Shown piece by piece: positions 2,214-8,909 of a stretch of 10,928 nucleotides of DNA. Position 1 is the stretch's first letter. Each line of letters begins with the position of its first letter. The notes below the pieces were generated by a model, which saw nothing but the letters and a program-made list of their open reading frames with translations, was not told the DNA's origin and did no database searches. The DNA comes from a bacterium. Lineage in GTDB: Bacteria > NPL-UPA2 > JAGMAN01. The stretch covers positions 1 through 10,928 of the forward strand of contig JAGMAN010000038.1 of assembly GCA_023130215.1 (NCBI GenBank). The letters are read 5' to 3'. The position numbers and the translations under genes are program-made.

Positions 2214-3653
2214 TTAACAAAATCCTGCTATTCTATCTTCCTGCTCTGTCTGCCACTCCGTGTGGAAGACGCCTTCTTTATCCACCCGCTGGTAAGTATG
2301 AGCGCCAAAGTAATCCCTTTGAGCCTGAATCAGGTTAGCGCTCAACCGCTCCCGACGGTAAGAGTCGTAATAGCAGAGGGCAGAACTGAAAGCCGGAATC
2401 GGTATCCCTGAGTTGGCTGCTGTGGATACTACGAGACGCCACTTATCCTGAGACCTTTCCACGATGTCCTTGAAATAAGGGTCGAGGATGAGATTGGCCA
2501 GGTCAGGACTGCGGTCGAATGCTTCCTTTATACGGTGCAAGAACTGAGCCCGGATGATACATCCTCCACGCCAAATCATGGCGATCTCGCCCAGGTGAAG
2601 GTTCCAGCCGTGTTCCTCGCTTGCTGCCTTCATGAGGGAGAATCCCTGAGCGTAGGAACATACCTTGGAAGCATAGAGAGCCTGACGAATGGCCTCGATG
2701 AACTCGTCTCGATTGCCTTCATATTTGACACCTGGCCCGGACAGGATTTTAGAAGCGGCTATACGCTCCTCCTTTATAGCCGAAATACATCGCGCAAAGA
2801 CAGCCTCTGCAATGGTCGGTGCGGCAATGCCCAGGTCCAGAGCCGACTGACTGGCCCATTTTCCGGTTCCTTTCTGACCTGCCTTATCCAGTATTAGCTC
2901 GACTAACGGCTTTCCAGTCTCCTCATCCACCCTGGAGAAAATGTCCCGCGTGATCTCAATGAGGTAGGAATCAAGCTCGCCCTCATTCCATTTAGAAAAG
3001 ACCCCGTGCAACTGCCGGGCATCCATACCGAGAGCATTTTTCATAATGTAGTATGCCTCGCAGATTAACTGCATGTCTCCGTATTCTATTCCGTTATGGA
3101 CCATCTTTACATAGTGTCCGGCTCCGTCGGGCCCAATGTAAGCACAACAGGGTTCGCCATTAACATGGGCGGCAATTTTGGTAAAGAGGGGAGCAACTAT
3201 GTCATAAGCTTCCCTCTGTCCGCCGGGCATTATCGCCGGACCGTGCAGGGCTCCTTCTTCTCCTCCACTAACTCCGGTGCCGATGTAGAGTATACCTTTC
3301 TCAGATAACTCCTTATTGCGACGGATGGTGTCCCCAAAGAAAGAGTTACCGCCATCAATAATAAGGTCACCTTTTTCCAAATGGGGCATTAGTTTCTCGA
3401 TAAAGGCATCAACCGCCTCCCCGGCTTTAACCATTAGCATAATTCGCCGGGGTCTTTCCAGTGAACCAACGAATTCCTCAATAGAATAGGTAGGCAGTAT
3501 CTTCTTGCCCGAGGCTTTTCCCTTAGCAAAGTTCTCGGTCTTTGATGAAGTTCTATTAAATATGGCAATAGGAAAGCCCTTGCTCTCGATATTAAGGGTA
3601 AGATTCTCCCCCATAACCGCTAAGCCAATCAATCCTATCTTCTGCTTTTGCAT
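2214..3653 (-). CDS. gnd: 6-phosphogluconate dehydrogenase, decarboxylating
   Basis: Oxidatively decarboxylates 6-phosphogluconate to ribulose 5-phosphate, the third step of the oxidative pentose phosphate pathway; cytosolic dimer. The protein is 479 residues, matching the usual long bacterial form of about 470-480. The N-terminal Rossmann motif is GLIGLAVMG (7-15), with N33-R34-T35 after the second strand, as in NADP-dependent enzymes. The substrate loop includes IIDGGNS (98-104) and GVSGGEEGA (127-135). Catalytic K183, N187 and E190 fall at the same numbers as in the well-studied enzymes. The C-terminal tail has the typical [11 protein letters not shown] motif. ATG 3653 is chosen because AGGAG (3661-3665) is 7 bases upstream; a TTG at 3683 is in frame but has no such support. 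No glucose-6-phosphate dehydrogenase or lactonase is in the window, so its substrate may come from gluconate phosphorylation (inference). Confidence 0.97.
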
Positions 3654-3660
3654 CGACCTT

Positions 3661-3665
3661 CTCCT
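3661..3665 (-). promoter_or_regulatory. Shine-Dalgarno AGGAG of gnd
   Basis: AGGAG on the minus strand, 7 bases before the ATG at 3653. It supports that start over the in-frame TTG thirty bases further upstream. Confidence 0.75.
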
Positions 3666-3747
3666 TTCTTTTTCTTTATCCAAATATGCAATGTAGTTTA
3701 GTTGTATCTAAATCTGAGATCCCCTTCTTCTTCTCTAAATAGTAGCA

Positions 3748-4944
3748 TCAATAGCTCTTAAACCCCAATGCCTGAAGGATGCTTAATACTTTCTCATTAC
3801 TCTGGACTAATTTCACTTTGAAACTATGAAATTCTCTCCGAACTGGATATTCATTCCTCAGTCGGTCAAAATAAGCTCCTCGCTCAGGTAAAGGGATTTT
3901 GAGAATTCCGCGAAGAGCCCTATCGTCGCCCTCTAAGTCATAAGCCTTTCTCACTACTTCGGACAAGATTGCTTCGTCACCTTCGCTCTGCTCTGGGTCC
4001 TCGCAATGAACCCCAATTTCAGGGTAGAGTGGGGGAGGAAGGTTAGTTGGCTGCCAGTTAGCGACTTTCCTGTCTACCCCCGCCTGTCTGTCGGACAGGG
4101 ACACGCAAGATAAGAAACGGCAGGTCCCCTGATAAATAAATAAGGTAGCGTTGGCTTTCCCCTCCCGGGAATAACCAGCAATGTGGGGAGTTCCCAGGTC
4201 AACTGCCTGGAGAAGTTCCTCGCTTATCTCTGGCTCACCTTCCCAGACATCGAGCACAGTCCCGCTCAGTCTTTTTGATTTCAGAGCCTTGAGCAGACCG
4301 GGACTATCCGCTACCGCTCCCCGGGAAGTATTAATGAAGAAACCTCCTTTTTTCATCTTTTCAAAAAGAGCCTCATTAGCCATATGATAGGTAGCATCTT
4401 CTCCTTCATGACTGAGAGGAACATGAAGAGTTAAAATATCTGATTTCTGGAGTAGTTCTTCCAATGGCCGGAAGCGACTCTCACCAGTCTTCCGGGCCAG
4501 GGGAGGGTCATTCTGAAGAACATTCATCCCTAAAATACCTGCTTTCTCTACCACTCGGGAACCAACATTTCCCACTCCCACCACACCAATGGTCTTTCCG
4601 GAAAGAGAGAATTCATATCGTTGGGCAAGGATGAGAAGAGCGGCTACTATATATTCAGCCACTGAGTTAGCATTACATCCAGTCGCACTGGCGAACCTAA
4701 TTCCCTTTTTTTTTAGATAATCAAGGTCAACATGGTCCAGTCCAATAGTGGCGGTGGCTACGAAACGAACCCGACTTCCCTTAAGAAGCCGCTCATCCAC
4801 CCTGGTTACTGTTCGCACAAGGAGAACGTCAGCCTCCTTGACTGCGGAAGAGTTGATTTGGCGACCGGGAAGGGTGGCTACTTCCCCTAATTTTCCGAAA
4901 GCTTCTTCCACAAAGGGAATGTTCTTATCAGCAACGATTTTCAT
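3748..4944 (-). CDS. pdxB: Erythronate-4-phosphate dehydrogenase with repeat-derived insertions
   Basis: Oxidises 4-phospho-D-erythronate to the 2-oxo acid in the DXP-dependent vitamin B6 (PLP) pathway; a D-2-hydroxyacid dehydrogenase. From this start the 398 residues align with E. coli PdxB end to end: MKIVADKNIPF at the N-terminus, TATIGLDHVD (64-73), NAD motif VGVGNVG (122-128), NDPP (145-148), and catalytic R208, E237 (in WEGEPE) and H254 (in HIAGY), at the same numbers as recalled for E. coli. The C-terminal PdxB-specific domain is present (YDLEGDDRALRG, LRNEYPVRRE, LGF). It is about 20 residues longer than E. coli PdxB (378), because of odd stretches at 273-296 and 312-326 that look like palindromic DNA repeats read in frame. 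Start 4944 forms an ATGA overlap with the upstream stop. GGAG is only 2 bases away; starts at 4977 or 4983 are possible. Other 2-hydroxyacid substrates cannot be excluded. Confidence 0.9.
   Translation of the reverse strand: MKIVADKNIPFVEEAFGKLGEVATLPGRQINSSAVKEADVLLVRTVTRVDERLLKGSRVRFVATATIGLDHVDLDYLKKKGIRFASATGCNANSVAEYIVAALLILAQRYEFSLSGKTIGVVGVGNVGSRVVEKAGILGMNVLQNDPPLARKTGESRFRPLEELLQKSDILTLHVPLSHEGEDATYHMANEALFEKMKKGGFFINTSRGAVADSPGLLKALKSKRLSGTVLDVWEGEPEISEELLQAVDLGTPHIAGYSREGKANATLFIYQGTCRFLSCVSLSDRQAGVDRKVANWQPTNLPPPLYPEIGVHCEDPEQSEGDEAILSEVVRKAYDLEGDDRALRGILKIPLPERGAYFDRLRNEYPVRREFHSFKVKLVQSNEKVLSILQALGFKSY
3967..4011 (-). repeat. Dispersed-repeat-like segment inside pdxB (ATTGC...GCAAT)
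   Basis: On the minus strand this reads TTCATTGCGAGGA followed by GAC/GAAG-rich sequence and ending GACGAAGCAATC. It resembles the 'CATTGCGAGG...GACGAAGCAATC' palindromic repeat I recall as scattered through many bacterial genomes. The ends are an inverted ATTGC/GCAAT pair. Here it is read in frame as HCEDPEQSEGDEAI (PdxB residues 313-326), a translation typical of this repeat. Identification is from memory; only one copy is in the window. Confidence 0.6.
4057..4131 (-). repeat. Palindromic insert inside pdxB, core CCTGTC...GACAGG
   Basis: This stretch encodes PdxB residues about 273-296, which have no counterpart in E. coli PdxB between the HIAGY helix and the WQPT segment. Its core is a perfect 6-bp inverted repeat, CCTGTC at 4083-4088 and GACAGG at 4094-4099 with a 5-base loop, of the 'CCTGTC-GACAGG' palindromic kind that I recall as repeated in some bacterial genomes. 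The exact ends of the element are uncertain; the insertion keeps the frame. Confidence 0.5.
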
Positions 4945-6239
4945 TTCTCCAAACGGTCTTGTAATTTCTTTTTCCATGCCCATAATCCTGCTGAAGGAGA
5001 ACTTATGAAATAAACCTTTTCACCGTCAGGCATAGTATTCCATCCCTCCGACATTTTCTCCGGGTTATAACGATTCAAGGCATCATCCAGCTCAACATAT
5101 TCAAAATTGACGTTTTCTATCTCTTCTCTGGTAAGTTTACCGGGAGCGTAAGTTATAGTGAAACGAGATTCGCTGGAGCCGTGAATTAAATGAGCAGCCG
5201 CATGTGCTAAATCCTGCAAGTCGTTGTTCTTCTTATATTGTTCCATAACCGTCGAGGTTCCCCCATACCCATATTTACGAATCAAAGCATCAACCTCAGG
5301 CTGTTCACCAAAACGTTCCAACCCCGGGGCAATGATTAATAATTCACCCTTGTCCGCCAGAGCCATACGAGTGCGATAAATAGCCTTATTGGCCACCCAT
5401 GTACTTTTAAATTCATCTGCTTGCATAACAGCAACAATCTTTTTTATTGGCTCATCAAAGACGGTGATGTTTTGTTCTTTACTTCTACCAGCAGCCATCA
5501 GATAGGTTTCCATGTCATCGCCTACATACAAACCAGTGGGGACAAGTTCCTGCTCTTCATTTCTTGCCATAACGATTAAGACATAAACATCAGGAAGTTT
5601 ATTTAAATAATCTTCTTCTGCCTTGTTATAGCAGGCCCGGACGGGAGTGATGAGCTGACCTAAATTGTTCTCTATGCCACAGCAAGCCGCCATCATATGA
5701 GAAGCGCAAATGGTTTCCTTCCCACCTAATCCGATGAAATAGTTCTTGTTGTGATTAGCAAAACCCAGGACTTCGTGAGGAACAACATGGCCTATATTTA
5801 TAATGAGGTCATAATCATTTTCAATGACCATCCTGTTGATTTCAACAGGGATAGGCCAGTCTGCTTTTCCATCACTGGCCTCTTTTACATAACCTGCGCT
5901 AACCTCACCAATTTTTTTGCATCCCTTACGCCAATCGTGGACATGGAAACATTCTAAGGGAATAGAACCGAACATCCATTTATTTTCCTTGTCAGTATGG
6001 GGCACGTGCTGTCCCAGCGTTGGGATGACATCAACCTTGCAGCCATCGGGAAGAAGTCTGTAAATCATCTCTGTCAATTGCCCTGCCCCAGAATGATGAC
6101 GTGTAATGTCAGGAGGCAAAAGCAAAACCTTTTTTAAGTCTTTTGTTATTCTTTCTCGTGCCTGCTCAATGAGTCGCTGTATCAATTCCTGCTTTTTCCT
6201 GACCCCGATTGATTCAGCTTCTTCATAAAACCACGGCAT
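4941..6239 (-). CDS. LarA-like (DUF2088) nickel-pincer racemase/epimerase, possibly sugar-acid epimerase
   Basis: Member of the lactate racemase LarA superfamily, whose characterised members use the nickel-pincer nucleotide (NPN) cofactor to invert the alpha carbon of 2-hydroxy acids. The 432 residues show PPDITRHHS (42-50, the substrate-binding D/R region), GQHVPHT (76-82, catalytic-His region), GHVVPHE (150-156, second His region) and GGKET (172-176, candidate NPN-lysine K174), with H181 a possible metal ligand. Assigning these to LarA residues is by eye. The overall pattern matches the branch commonly labelled 'D-mannonate epimerase' rather than lactate racemase, which fits the nearby mannonate-type SDR. 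A 2-epimerase for gluconate/mannonate is the best guess. AGGA (6247-6250) lies 7 bases before the ATG. It starts 3 bases after the HAD gene and overlaps pdxB by 4. The NPN-making genes larB, larC and larE are not in the window. Confidence 0.82.
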   Translation of the reverse strand: MPWFYEEAESIGVRKKQELIQRLIEQARERITKDLKKVLLLPPDITRHHSGAGQLTEMIYRLLPDGCKVDVIPTLGQHVPHTDKENKWMFGSIPLECFHVHDWRKGCKKIGEVSAGYVKEASDGKADWPIPVEINRMVIENDYDLIINIGHVVPHEVLGFANHNKNYFIGLGGKETICASHMMAACCGIENNLGQLITPVRACYNKAEEDYLNKLPDVYVLIVMARNEEQELVPTGLYVGDDMETYLMAAGRSKEQNITVFDEPIKKIVAVMQADEFKSTWVANKAIYRTRMALADKGELLIIAPGLERFGEQPEVDALIRKYGYGGTSTVMEQYKKNNDLQDLAHAAAHLIHGSSESRFTITYAPGKLTREEIENVNFEYVELDDALNRYNPEKMSEGWNTMPDGEKVYFISSPSAGLWAWKKKLQDRLEK

Positions 6240-6242
6240 AAT

Positions 6243-7136
6243 CTATTCCTTCCAGGGCGGCTCTTCCGGCAGATGCTTCATAAATTCCTTAATTAATTTC
6301 TCTTCATATCCACCGGCATAGTTTCCAGAGAGAAAGACATTCAGAGATTCCTCGTGAAACTTCTCCCAGGATTCCTCCTCCTCACCGGGGATAACCGGGT
6401 AGAAAAGAGCATTGTTTCCCTTGGCCGCTTTCATATCACCGGGAGCATCCCCAACCATAAGAACATGATTGGCTTTATATTTCCCTCCTGAGGCAAGTGC
6501 CAGATGCTCTGTCTTGGAGCCCATTTCCTGCCCGGCAATCACTTTCGCATATTTAGCAATATTATGTTCTTTCCATTCTCTCTGGAGGGCTTCTGTCGGC
6601 GTAGCTGAAACAACGACAATATCGACCAGAGTAGAAAGTTTTTCTAAGCTCTCCCTGACAAAAGGAAAAGGGGAAACATCTTTAACGGTCTCAGCTACTG
6701 TCCGATTCACTGCTTCGCTCCACTCCAAGGCTTTTTTAAGTTCGGGGTCTGCGGTTTTCTCCACTGCTTCCTTTAAGGCCGGATTTCCCAGGGGAACGCC
6801 GGAATCGATGAATTCTCTAATCTTGGGAGCCCGGGGAATATCTACTTTGCGCCTCCTTACCTCTTCCCTTTCCCTGAGCAAATCAAATACCATGACCAGG
6901 GCGGGAAAACGGTTTATCCCTCTCCATTTGGAGTATAGGTTGACGAATTCAGCCGCCTCCCTGGCATATTTGGAGACAGGCTGGAGACCCCAGTGTTTGA
7001 TAATATTGGGAATAAAACATTCCTTGTGCTTTATTTCCATAGTGTCAAAGGCGCATCCATCTGAATCTACACCCACAAAGAAATCGTGTTCAGGCTTAAG
7101 TTCTTTAAGTGCTCTACCTGCTTCTTTAACATCCAT
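6243..7136 (-). CDS. HAD-superfamily hydrolase, substrate unknown
   Basis: Haloacid dehalogenase-type hydrolase, most likely a phosphatase, cytosolic. The 297 residues contain the four HAD motifs: I, VDSDGC (nucleophile D24, acid/base D26); II, VVSATP (S177); III, K208 in GSKTEH; IV, GDAPGD (D230, D234, Mg binding). A large insert between motifs I and II (residues about 30-160) is a helical cap of the C1 type, so a small-molecule substrate is likely. It carries the unusual stretches KHWGLQPVSKYA and WRGINRFPA, possibly the substrate pocket. ATG 7136 is preferred because GGAGG (7142-7146) is 5 bases upstream; the ATG at 7148 lacks an SD. It sits between the SDR and LarA-like genes, 3 bases from the latter, so a phosphorylated sugar acid is a reasonable substrate (inference). 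I do not recognise a named family. Confidence 0.85.
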   Translation of the reverse strand: MDVKEAGRALKELKPEHDFFVGVDSDGCAFDTMEIKHKECFIPNIIKHWGLQPVSKYAREAAEFVNLYSKWRGINRFPALVMVFDLLREREEVRRRKVDIPRAPKIREFIDSGVPLGNPALKEAVEKTADPELKKALEWSEAVNRTVAETVKDVSPFPFVRESLEKLSTLVDIVVVSATPTEALQREWKEHNIAKYAKVIAGQEMGSKTEHLALASGGKYKANHVLMVGDAPGDMKAAKGNNALFYPVIPGEEEESWEKFHEESLNVFLSGNYAGGYEEKLIKEFMKHLPEEPPWKE

Positions 7137-7141
7137 CCCTT

Positions 7142-7146
7142 CCTCC
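7142..7146 (-). promoter_or_regulatory. Shine-Dalgarno GGAGG deciding the HAD gene start
   Basis: GGAGG on the minus strand, 5 bases before the ATG at 7136. It overlaps the alternative ATG at 7146-7148, which has no ribosome binding site of its own. Confidence 0.78.
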
Positions 7147-7154
7147 ATTAATGA

Positions 7155-7195
7155 GCACGTGACTTATGGAACGAAGTGAGCATAAGTCACTGTGC
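7155..7195 (-). repeat. Long stem-loop between the SDR and HAD genes
   Basis: A perfect 10-bp inverted repeat, GTGACTTATG (7159-7168) and CATAAGTCAC (7181-7190), with a 12-base loop. It is extended by GCAC (7155-7158) and GTGC (7192-7195) around a single bulged T at 7191, giving a 14-bp stem. It starts 3 bases after the SDR stop codon and ends 8 bases before the SD of the HAD gene. No T run follows on the transcribed strand, so it is not a typical intrinsic terminator. It could be an mRNA processing or stability element that sets relative expression, or a dispersed palindromic repeat. Confidence 0.75.
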
Positions 7196-7198
7196 GAA

Positions 7199-8023
7199 TT
7201 ATACGCCACTAAAAGCTGAAAATCCTCCATCTACCGGTATTACCGTTCCCTGGACAAACTGAGCAGAAGGTGAGACCAGCCAGATGATTGTACCGACAAG
7301 GTCTTCCGGATTTCCAAAGCGTCCCATAGGAGTATGCTCAATGATGGTCTTTCCCCGAGGAGTAAAATTACTGGTTTTCTCGTCAACAAGAAGGAAACGA
7401 TTCTGTTCAGTGAGGAAGAAACCAGGAGCAATAGCATTCACCCGAATCTTCTTTGAATAATTCTGAGATATATGAACGGCCAACCATTGAGTGAAATTAG
7501 ATACGGCTGCTTTGGCGGCTGAGTAAGCTGGAATCCGGGTTAGAGGACGAAGAGCATTCATTGAAGAAATATTGATAATTACTCCTTCTTCCTGTTTGGC
7601 TAAAACCTTTCCAAAAACCTGGGAGGAAAGAAAGACTCCTAAAAAATTCAGGTCAAAGACTCCTCTTATTGCTTCTGCAGGCAAGTCAAAGAATTCAAGT
7701 TCCTTAGAGGTAGTTGCCTCCTTTTTGTTTCCGCCTGCTCCATTTATCAGAATATCCAGGTGACCAAATTCTTTCATAATAGTGGAGAGGCATTCATTCA
7801 GGCTCTTGCGGGAAAGAACATCAGCTTTAAGGGCGATTGCCTTTCCCCCTTCCCGAGAAATTTCCCCGGCTACTCTTTGAGCCACCTCTTTGTTAAGGTC
7901 AAGCAGAGCTACTGAGGCTCCCTGCTTGGCCAGGGCCCTGGATATTGTTCCACAGAGTATACCTCCTCCCCCGGTTACCACCGCCACTTTTCCCTTTAAA
8001 TTAAATAGTTCTTCCAAATCCAT
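7199..8023 (-). CDS. SDR-family dehydrogenase, D-mannonate/fructuronate oxidoreductase type
   Basis: Classical short-chain dehydrogenase/reductase of 274 residues. The nucleotide site is TGGGGILCG (17-25) with D42 ending the second strand, so NAD is likely. NGAG is at 94-97, N126 is the structural Asn, and the catalytic set is S154, Y167 and K171 (YSAAK). The stretch around the active site (NISSMNA, PLTRIPAY), the APGFF.TEQNR segment and the C-terminal PVDGGFSAFSGV closely resemble the SDR group annotated as D-mannonate oxidoreductase (SDR-type UxuB) or gluconate 5-dehydrogenase. It would interconvert D-mannonate and D-fructuronate or a similar sugar acid pair. The LarA-like epimerase two genes on supports a sugar-acid role. 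Start 8023 (AAGGGG 3 bases upstream, typical SDR N-terminus) is favoured; ATG 8065 with AGGA 9 bases upstream is a real alternative adding 14 basic residues. Family sure, substrate moderate. Confidence 0.88.
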   Translation of the reverse strand: MDLEELFNLKGKVAVVTGGGGILCGTISRALAKQGASVALLDLNKEVAQRVAGEISREGGKAIALKADVLSRKSLNECLSTIMKEFGHLDILINGAGGNKKEATTSKELEFFDLPAEAIRGVFDLNFLGVFLSSQVFGKVLAKQEEGVIINISSMNALRPLTRIPAYSAAKAAVSNFTQWLAVHISQNYSKKIRVNAIAPGFFLTEQNRFLLVDEKTSNFTPRGKTIIEHTPMGRFGNPEDLVGTIIWLVSPSAQFVQGTVIPVDGGFSAFSGV

Positions 8024-8080
8024 ATTCCCCTTCTTTCTCCTTTCAATCTTTAGGCCTCTTTCCATACTTCAATTTCCTTA

Positions 8081-8109
8081 ATCTTTTCATATTATTTGGA
8101 ATTTGTCAA
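8081..8109 (-). promoter_or_regulatory. Candidate sigma-70-type promoter before the SDR gene
   Basis: A perfect -35 hexamer TTGACA (minus strand of 8104-8109) spans the truA stop codon. It is followed after 17 bases by AAAGAT (8081-8086), which matches only three of six -10 positions. The region is A/T rich. If used, transcription would start near 8074, before the SDR start at 8023, and would separate the sugar-acid block from leuB-asd-truA. The weak -10 keeps this tentative. Confidence 0.3.
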
Positions 8110-8909
8110 TACTTCACCTTGACTAAGCAGAGGCCGTGGGGAGGGAGGGTAGGGCCACCGTGGCGTCTATCTCTTGCCCGCAATATCTCCCTTATATCTT
8201 GAGGTCCGATTTTCCCTCTTCCTACTTCTAAGAGGGTGCCAGATATGACCCTGGCCATGTTATAAAGGAAGCCGTCAGCCTCTATGTCAATATGGATGAG
8301 TTTATGCTTGCTATCCAGGGAGATGCAATTGCTGCCAGACCCCACCGGGATCTTCTTTGAGGTAACAGAATTATCAACAGACTTAACCGTGAGCTTCTTT
8401 ACGATGCGAATGCAATTCTCCCTTCCGGTGGCTTGACCCCGAAACGAGGAGAAGTCATGTCTGCCAATCAGGTATTTAGCGGCCTTTTTCATGGCATGAG
8501 TGCCTAATGGATGGGGAAAGAAATAAGCATATTTCCTGAGAAATGGAGAGGGAAGAGCACGGTTCAGAATGGTATAACGGTAGAATTTACCCTTTGCCCC
8601 ATAGCGGGCATGGAAGTCATCCTCTGCCAGGAGACAACTTTTTATCACTATGTCTTCTGGCAGAAGACTGTTTAAGGCGGCTTTTAAATTCCTTAGAGGG
8701 ATTCTACTCTTCGTCTTAAGGTTTGCTGCCTGTCCCCGAGCATGCACTCCGGCATCAGTTCTACTTGCTCCAACGAGATTTACTTTCTCCTGAAGAACCT
8801 TGGTTAAGGCTTTCTCAATGGTCTCCTGCACAGTGGCTGAGTGCGGCTGGCGCTGCCAGCCATGATAACTGCCGCCATCATATTCAATAGTGAGTTTGAT
8901 ATTTCGCAC
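8106..8909 (-). CDS. truA: tRNA pseudouridine(38-40) synthase TruA
   Basis: Converts uridines 38-40 in the tRNA anticodon stem to pseudouridine; cytosolic dimer. The 267 residues show the N-terminal IEYDGGSYHGWQRQ (8-21), catalytic D52 in the invariant GASRTDAGVHARGQ (47-60), the FHARYGAKGKFYRY segment (99-112), HDFSSFRG (151-158) and DGFLYNMAR (212-220). About 20 extra residues (about 180-203) lie between KLTVKSVD and the LIHIDIEADGF strand, where many TruA proteins have a tight turn. The start is a GTG at 8909, only 4 bases after the asd stop and without a clear SD, so translation is probably coupled to asd. Placement after leuB-asd is, from memory, seen in several bacterial groups. The gene is essentially certain. 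Confidence 0.96.
   Translation of the reverse strand: MRNIKLTIEYDGGSYHGWQRQPHSATVQETIEKALTKVLQEKVNLVGASRTDAGVHARGQAANLKTKSRIPLRNLKAALNSLLPEDIVIKSCLLAEDDFHARYGAKGKFYRYTILNRALPSPFLRKYAYFFPHPLGTHAMKKAAKYLIGRHDFSSFRGQATGRENCIRIVKKLTVKSVDNSVTSKKIPVGSGSNCISLDSKHKLIHIDIEADGFLYNMARVISGTLLEVGRGKIGPQDIREILRARDRRHGGPTLPPHGLCLVKVKY

Follow-up and report, generated by a model that had tools for sequence, protein, structure and literature searches.

In Rickettsia, palindromic elements (RPEs) lie in frame in conserved genes, and RPE-4, RPE-6 and RPE-7 can share one gene in different species (PMC3767692, PMC2229807). Intragenic CGTC and GTAG REPs have also been reported, including in uvrA and in DNA polymerase I genes (PMC3733652). 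In the window analysed here, the whole stretch of 10,928 nucleotides of contig JAGMAN010000038.1 (NPL-UPA2 lineage, assembly GCA_023130215.1), the initial annotation had noticed two palindromic segments within pdxB and proposed that they derive from two different families of dispersed repeats. Both segments, which we name elements A and B, are indeed present in the DNA, belong to different dispersed repeat families and are in frame, in the linker that joins the catalytic core to the C-terminal domain, DUF3410. The features discussed below are the following:

3748–4983, minus strand: pdxB-like gene, a 411-aa ORF encoding a 2-hydroxyacid dehydrogenase core and DUF3410
4069–4110, minus strand: element A insert, 42 nt, encoding SCVSLSDRQAGVDR (residues 292–305, net +13 aa relative to homologues)
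4083–4099, read on the plus strand: palindromic core of element A, CCTGTCTGTCGGACAGG, with related palindromes elsewhere in the genome
3967–4008, minus strand: element B, CATTGCGAGG...GACGAAGCAATC (full sequence CATTGCGAGGACCCAGAGCAGAGCGAAGGTGACGAAGCAATC), encoding HCEDPEQSEGDEAI (residues 326–339 of the 411-aa ORF)

The product of the pdxB-like gene contains the Pfam domains PF02826, PF00389 and PF11890 and matches the PDB PdxB 3oet with E=2e-88; its score against the NCBIfam PdxB model NF001309 is 429.1 bits, for a cutoff of 434. The frame is open through 411 codons, DUF3410 is complete and the catalytic residues Arg221, Glu250 and His267, previously described as intact under the numbers R208, E237 and H254, are invariant across the alignment of PdxB homologues. 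The linker and the C-terminal parts are the most diverged regions of the protein. Translation likely starts at Met14 (4944) rather than at 4983, since the Met14 ATG (4944–4942) overlaps with the stop of the upstream gene and this start agrees with the N-terminus of the PDB PdxBs; the residues 312–326 initially given for element B fit numbering from Met14. The 5' end of the 411-aa ORF (4941–4983) overlaps the upstream LarA-like gene, and the overlap of ATG and stop hints at translation coupling from the LarA-like gene to pdxB.

The gene order SDR–HAD–LarA-like–pdxB–gnd is common to the window and to a genome of another family of the same phylum (G008), in which the neighbours are 83–90% identical and PdxB 64–66%; because of this common neighbourhood, the pdxB of G008 serves best as outgroup among the sequences available. 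The block shared with G008 spans positions 2214–8065 of the window, yet the PdxB of the genus-mate G001 is only 54% identical. Sequence comparison suggests that the SDR–HAD–LarA-like–PdxB-like–Gnd block may have been transferred, and the PdxB-like enzyme perhaps has a sugar-acid role. Misbinning of the contig was considered and rejected, since TruA is 87% identical to that of the same-genus G001 over the matched stretch and the contig thus fits the genome. TruA (8106–8909) carries a 23-residue insert (the SVTSKKIPVGSGSNCISLDSKHK region, ~8300–8370, minus strand), which is missing in the same-genus G001 as well as in G003 and G004 and in whose DNA no repeat family was recognised.

Element A is a 13–14-residue insertion, facing a 13-residue gap in all seven aligned PdxB homologues (G008, 66% identical; the same-genus G001, 54%; the others, 35–51%), and the full segment is also missing in three PDB PdxBs. 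The insert corresponds to positions 4069–4110, so that the range of 4057–4131 originally assigned to it was too wide. Repeats were sought by pattern searches and in a sample of stretches. The pattern CCTGTC-N2-12-GACAGGC gave four matches in the genome to which the window belongs, vs none for the reversed control, and a relaxed palindrome pattern gave nine matches at six loci, vs one control match; variants of the palindrome are present at five loci of this genome besides pdxB. Further genomic copies, which the initial annotation led one to expect, were therefore recovered for the palindromic core of element A only: the full 42 bp have no second copy in the genome, where a whole-linker DNA query and an A-flank pattern likewise retrieved no further copy, and element B is single-copy in the pattern search, its hundreds of matches lying in other genomes. 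No Rfam match was obtained in the window or at the repeat loci.

At the other loci, the A-type palindrome is found in frame inside an insert of ~33 aa relative to the 1o5z enzyme (folC), in a loop that differs in length among members of the genus (leuC) and as two tandem units, coding for LPAGQAGLSAGQAG, in an outer-membrane-like ORF, while one locus is covered by short ORFs only. A palindrome in apgM (contig C46) was rejected as an insertion, as it coincides with the conserved GGLGR motif, adding a single residue there, and is probably coincidental. In the FolC gene (797–2245 of L260, minus strand, contig C27 of G000, the window's own genome), the A-type palindrome adjoins CCCTCTCCCC..GGGGAGAG, another palindromic type, which has six matches in foreign contigs and none in the control. 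CCTGTCTGCCGACAGGC is repeated in other phyla; G063, for instance, has nine copies, among short ORFs and apparently between genes.

The arms of element B, CATTGCGAGGACCC...GACGAAGCAATC, have at least 107 matching sites in GTDB genomes, spread over many phyla, the matches listed including Patescibacteria, Omnitrophota, Dehalococcoidia, Planctomycetota, Bacteroidia, Methylomirabilota and Alphaproteobacteria. A shorter arm pattern is present in 23 of the 98 sampled genomes, with a maximum of 284 matches in one complete genome (G070), and the reversed pattern has no match in any of them; in the window's own phylum, most genomes contain the arm pattern. The nearest copies among the matches listed, 39–40 of 42 positions identical, are from MAGs labelled Methylomirabilis oxygeniifera. 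Palindromes of the CCTGCCTGCCGGCAGG type gave 24 matches, and none in the control, in diverse contigs bearing family B (L060–L166), and are so frequent there that the two repeat types often share genomes.

Within family B, 88 of 108 copies start with CGTC or TGTC and 12 of 108 have a CCA tail, while the window copy has GTTC and CTT, respectively. An inverted half follows within 120 nt downstream in 66 of 108 copies, vs 1 of 158 control stretches; the window copy is single. Pairing in the inner stems of the family exceeds that of exchanged halves (mean 2.51 vs 1.76, with a maximum of 2.14 in 500 shuffles). The folding of element B of the window is weaker than that of all 80 distinct copies compared, as would be expected if it were a decayed or atypical unit.

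Relative to the nearest orthologue, element B has a net effect of ~+4 aa (~10 residues vs 6 in G008), and its end, DEAI, is in register with the DEKI of G008 (DEKI or DEVI in homologues). Since the net change is +4 and not +14, and since DEAI corresponds to DEKI/DEVI, a simple insertion does not explain element B, which overlays or replaces the old linker. Absence from orthologues at this site, with the frame kept, thus holds for element A and only in part for element B. An AlphaFold2 model built from an eight-sequence PdxB alignment has a mean pLDDT of 83.7 and the solved PdxBs 3oet and 2o4c as its top structural matches. In this model pLDDT falls below 50 at residues 295–303, inside element A and after helix 273–294, and element B is placed as a loop between strand 322–325 and helix 336–347. 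As to surface loops, for which the initial annotation proposed to fold the protein, the model predicts a disordered segment for element A and a loop position for element B.

The register of DEAI with DEKI/DEVI and the length change of only ~4 aa would also be obtained if the linker SGENDEKI had drifted, by chance or driven by coding, toward a repeat-like sequence, but we regard this as extremely improbable, because 40/42 identity to a repeat copy, with no reversed-pattern match in 98 genomes, makes convergence over 42 nt very unlikely. The segments had been described as apparently domesticated, a term that implies use by the cell, of which our analysis gave no sign. An intact gene with a conserved core is what one would see if they altered the PdxB-like enzyme (its oligomer, regulation or substrate) and were kept by selection; nevertheless, this reading is very unlikely, given that element A is predicted to be disordered, that the linker and C-terminal parts are those most diverged, with PdxB 64% and the neighbours 83–90% identical to G008, and that similar inserts are found in unrelated proteins. 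The same low identity to the orthologue, together with an NCBIfam score that falls narrowly short of the PdxB threshold, could instead indicate a gene en route to a pseudogene, whose linker inserts would be an early indication of relaxed selection. We consider this unlikely, in view of the 411 open codons, the invariant catalytic residues and the complete DUF3410.

The explanation we favour, and consider probable, is that a functional pdxB-like gene has received, in one tolerant linker, copies of two non-autonomous dispersed palindromic repeats from different families, and that these survive as translated loops. Both repeats would have been copied in as DNA, into the same linker; since such repeats are short and mostly lack stops whatever the frame, linker insertions that left the reading frame unbroken would survive, element A being translated into a disordered loop and element B into a loop. 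The enzyme would presumably remain active, and the insertions are probably tolerated and neutral, like the Rickettsia RPEs and the intragenic CGTC-tagged REPs. No target-site duplication was established at the pdxB inserts. The locus is another well-documented case of a known phenomenon and not a new kind of element.

Family B was also identified inside other proteins, as 32 of 108 copies are located well within open frames of at least 150 codons. In other phyla, hosts confirmed by Pfam, many of them housekeeping proteins with the repeat inside or between domains, are PolA, SecA (two), GyrA, UvrA, LepA, RsmB/F, WecG, a CCA-adding-type enzyme and an epimerase; judging from repeat sequence and domain boundaries, the repeat may be a clean insertion in these proteins. 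No stop interrupts any of the six frames in 55% of the distinct copies, vs 30% of dinucleotide shuffles. It is conceivable, although we hold it to be doubtful, that family B is one cross-phylum repeat, so poor in stops that it can insert in frame in essential genes, and is spread between phyla by some machinery, which would make it a general supplier of new loops to the proteins of uncultured bacteria.

To Rickettsia and the other cultured groups in which palindromic repeats are translated, these observations would add a lineage with a small genome, represented by a metagenome-type assembly; they show two repeat families in one linker and one repeat family in frame in core proteins across many phyla. 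Inserts of this kind may make annotation harder, the window PdxB being 5 bits below the NCBIfam cutoff, and in-frame repeat inserts amount to natural insertion scans of protein tolerance.

Searching the literature by sequence and peptide strings, we found no published description of family A or B. Both resemble REP/RAYT (GTAG) elements and bacterial MITEs in being dispersed, non-autonomous and palindromic, but family B has no GTAG tag. Mobilisation of family B by a RAYT is not supported: Y1_Tnp is present in 18 of the 23 genomes with B arms vs 44 of the 75 without, and is absent in the copy-richest genome. Specifically, PF01797 had no match in the window's own genome (90% complete) or in G070, which has 284 arm matches.

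With the CGTC-tagged REPs described by Di Nocera et al. (2013; PMC3733652), family B shares a mostly CGTC/TGTC start, AT at the stem base, frequent inverted pairs, an occurrence within uvrA, polA and other genes and no obvious transposase. However, CGTC-tagged REPs have a stem of 8–9 contiguous bp and a loop of 4–5 nt, whereas that of family B consists of 5 bp with an internal loop and an inner hairpin that varies, and neither their tag (CGTC, TGTC or CCTC) nor their CCA tail is found in element B of the window, which, differing in tag, stem and tail, we do not assign to the CGTC class. RPE inserts are longer (68–192 in the R. japonica table, against 42 bp for the window segments). RPE-4/6/7 carry the motif ATGAC, which on the opposite strand reads GTCAT, the start of most family-B units. 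The analogy with the Rickettsia palindromic elements drawn in the initial annotation fits: RPE-4, RPE-6, RPE-7 and other RPEs (PMC3767692, PMC2229807) lie in solvent-exposed regions, the segments described here in a low-pLDDT stretch and a loop of the model, and both are short palindromic repeats that keep the frame of conserved genes and are sometimes of different families at one locus.
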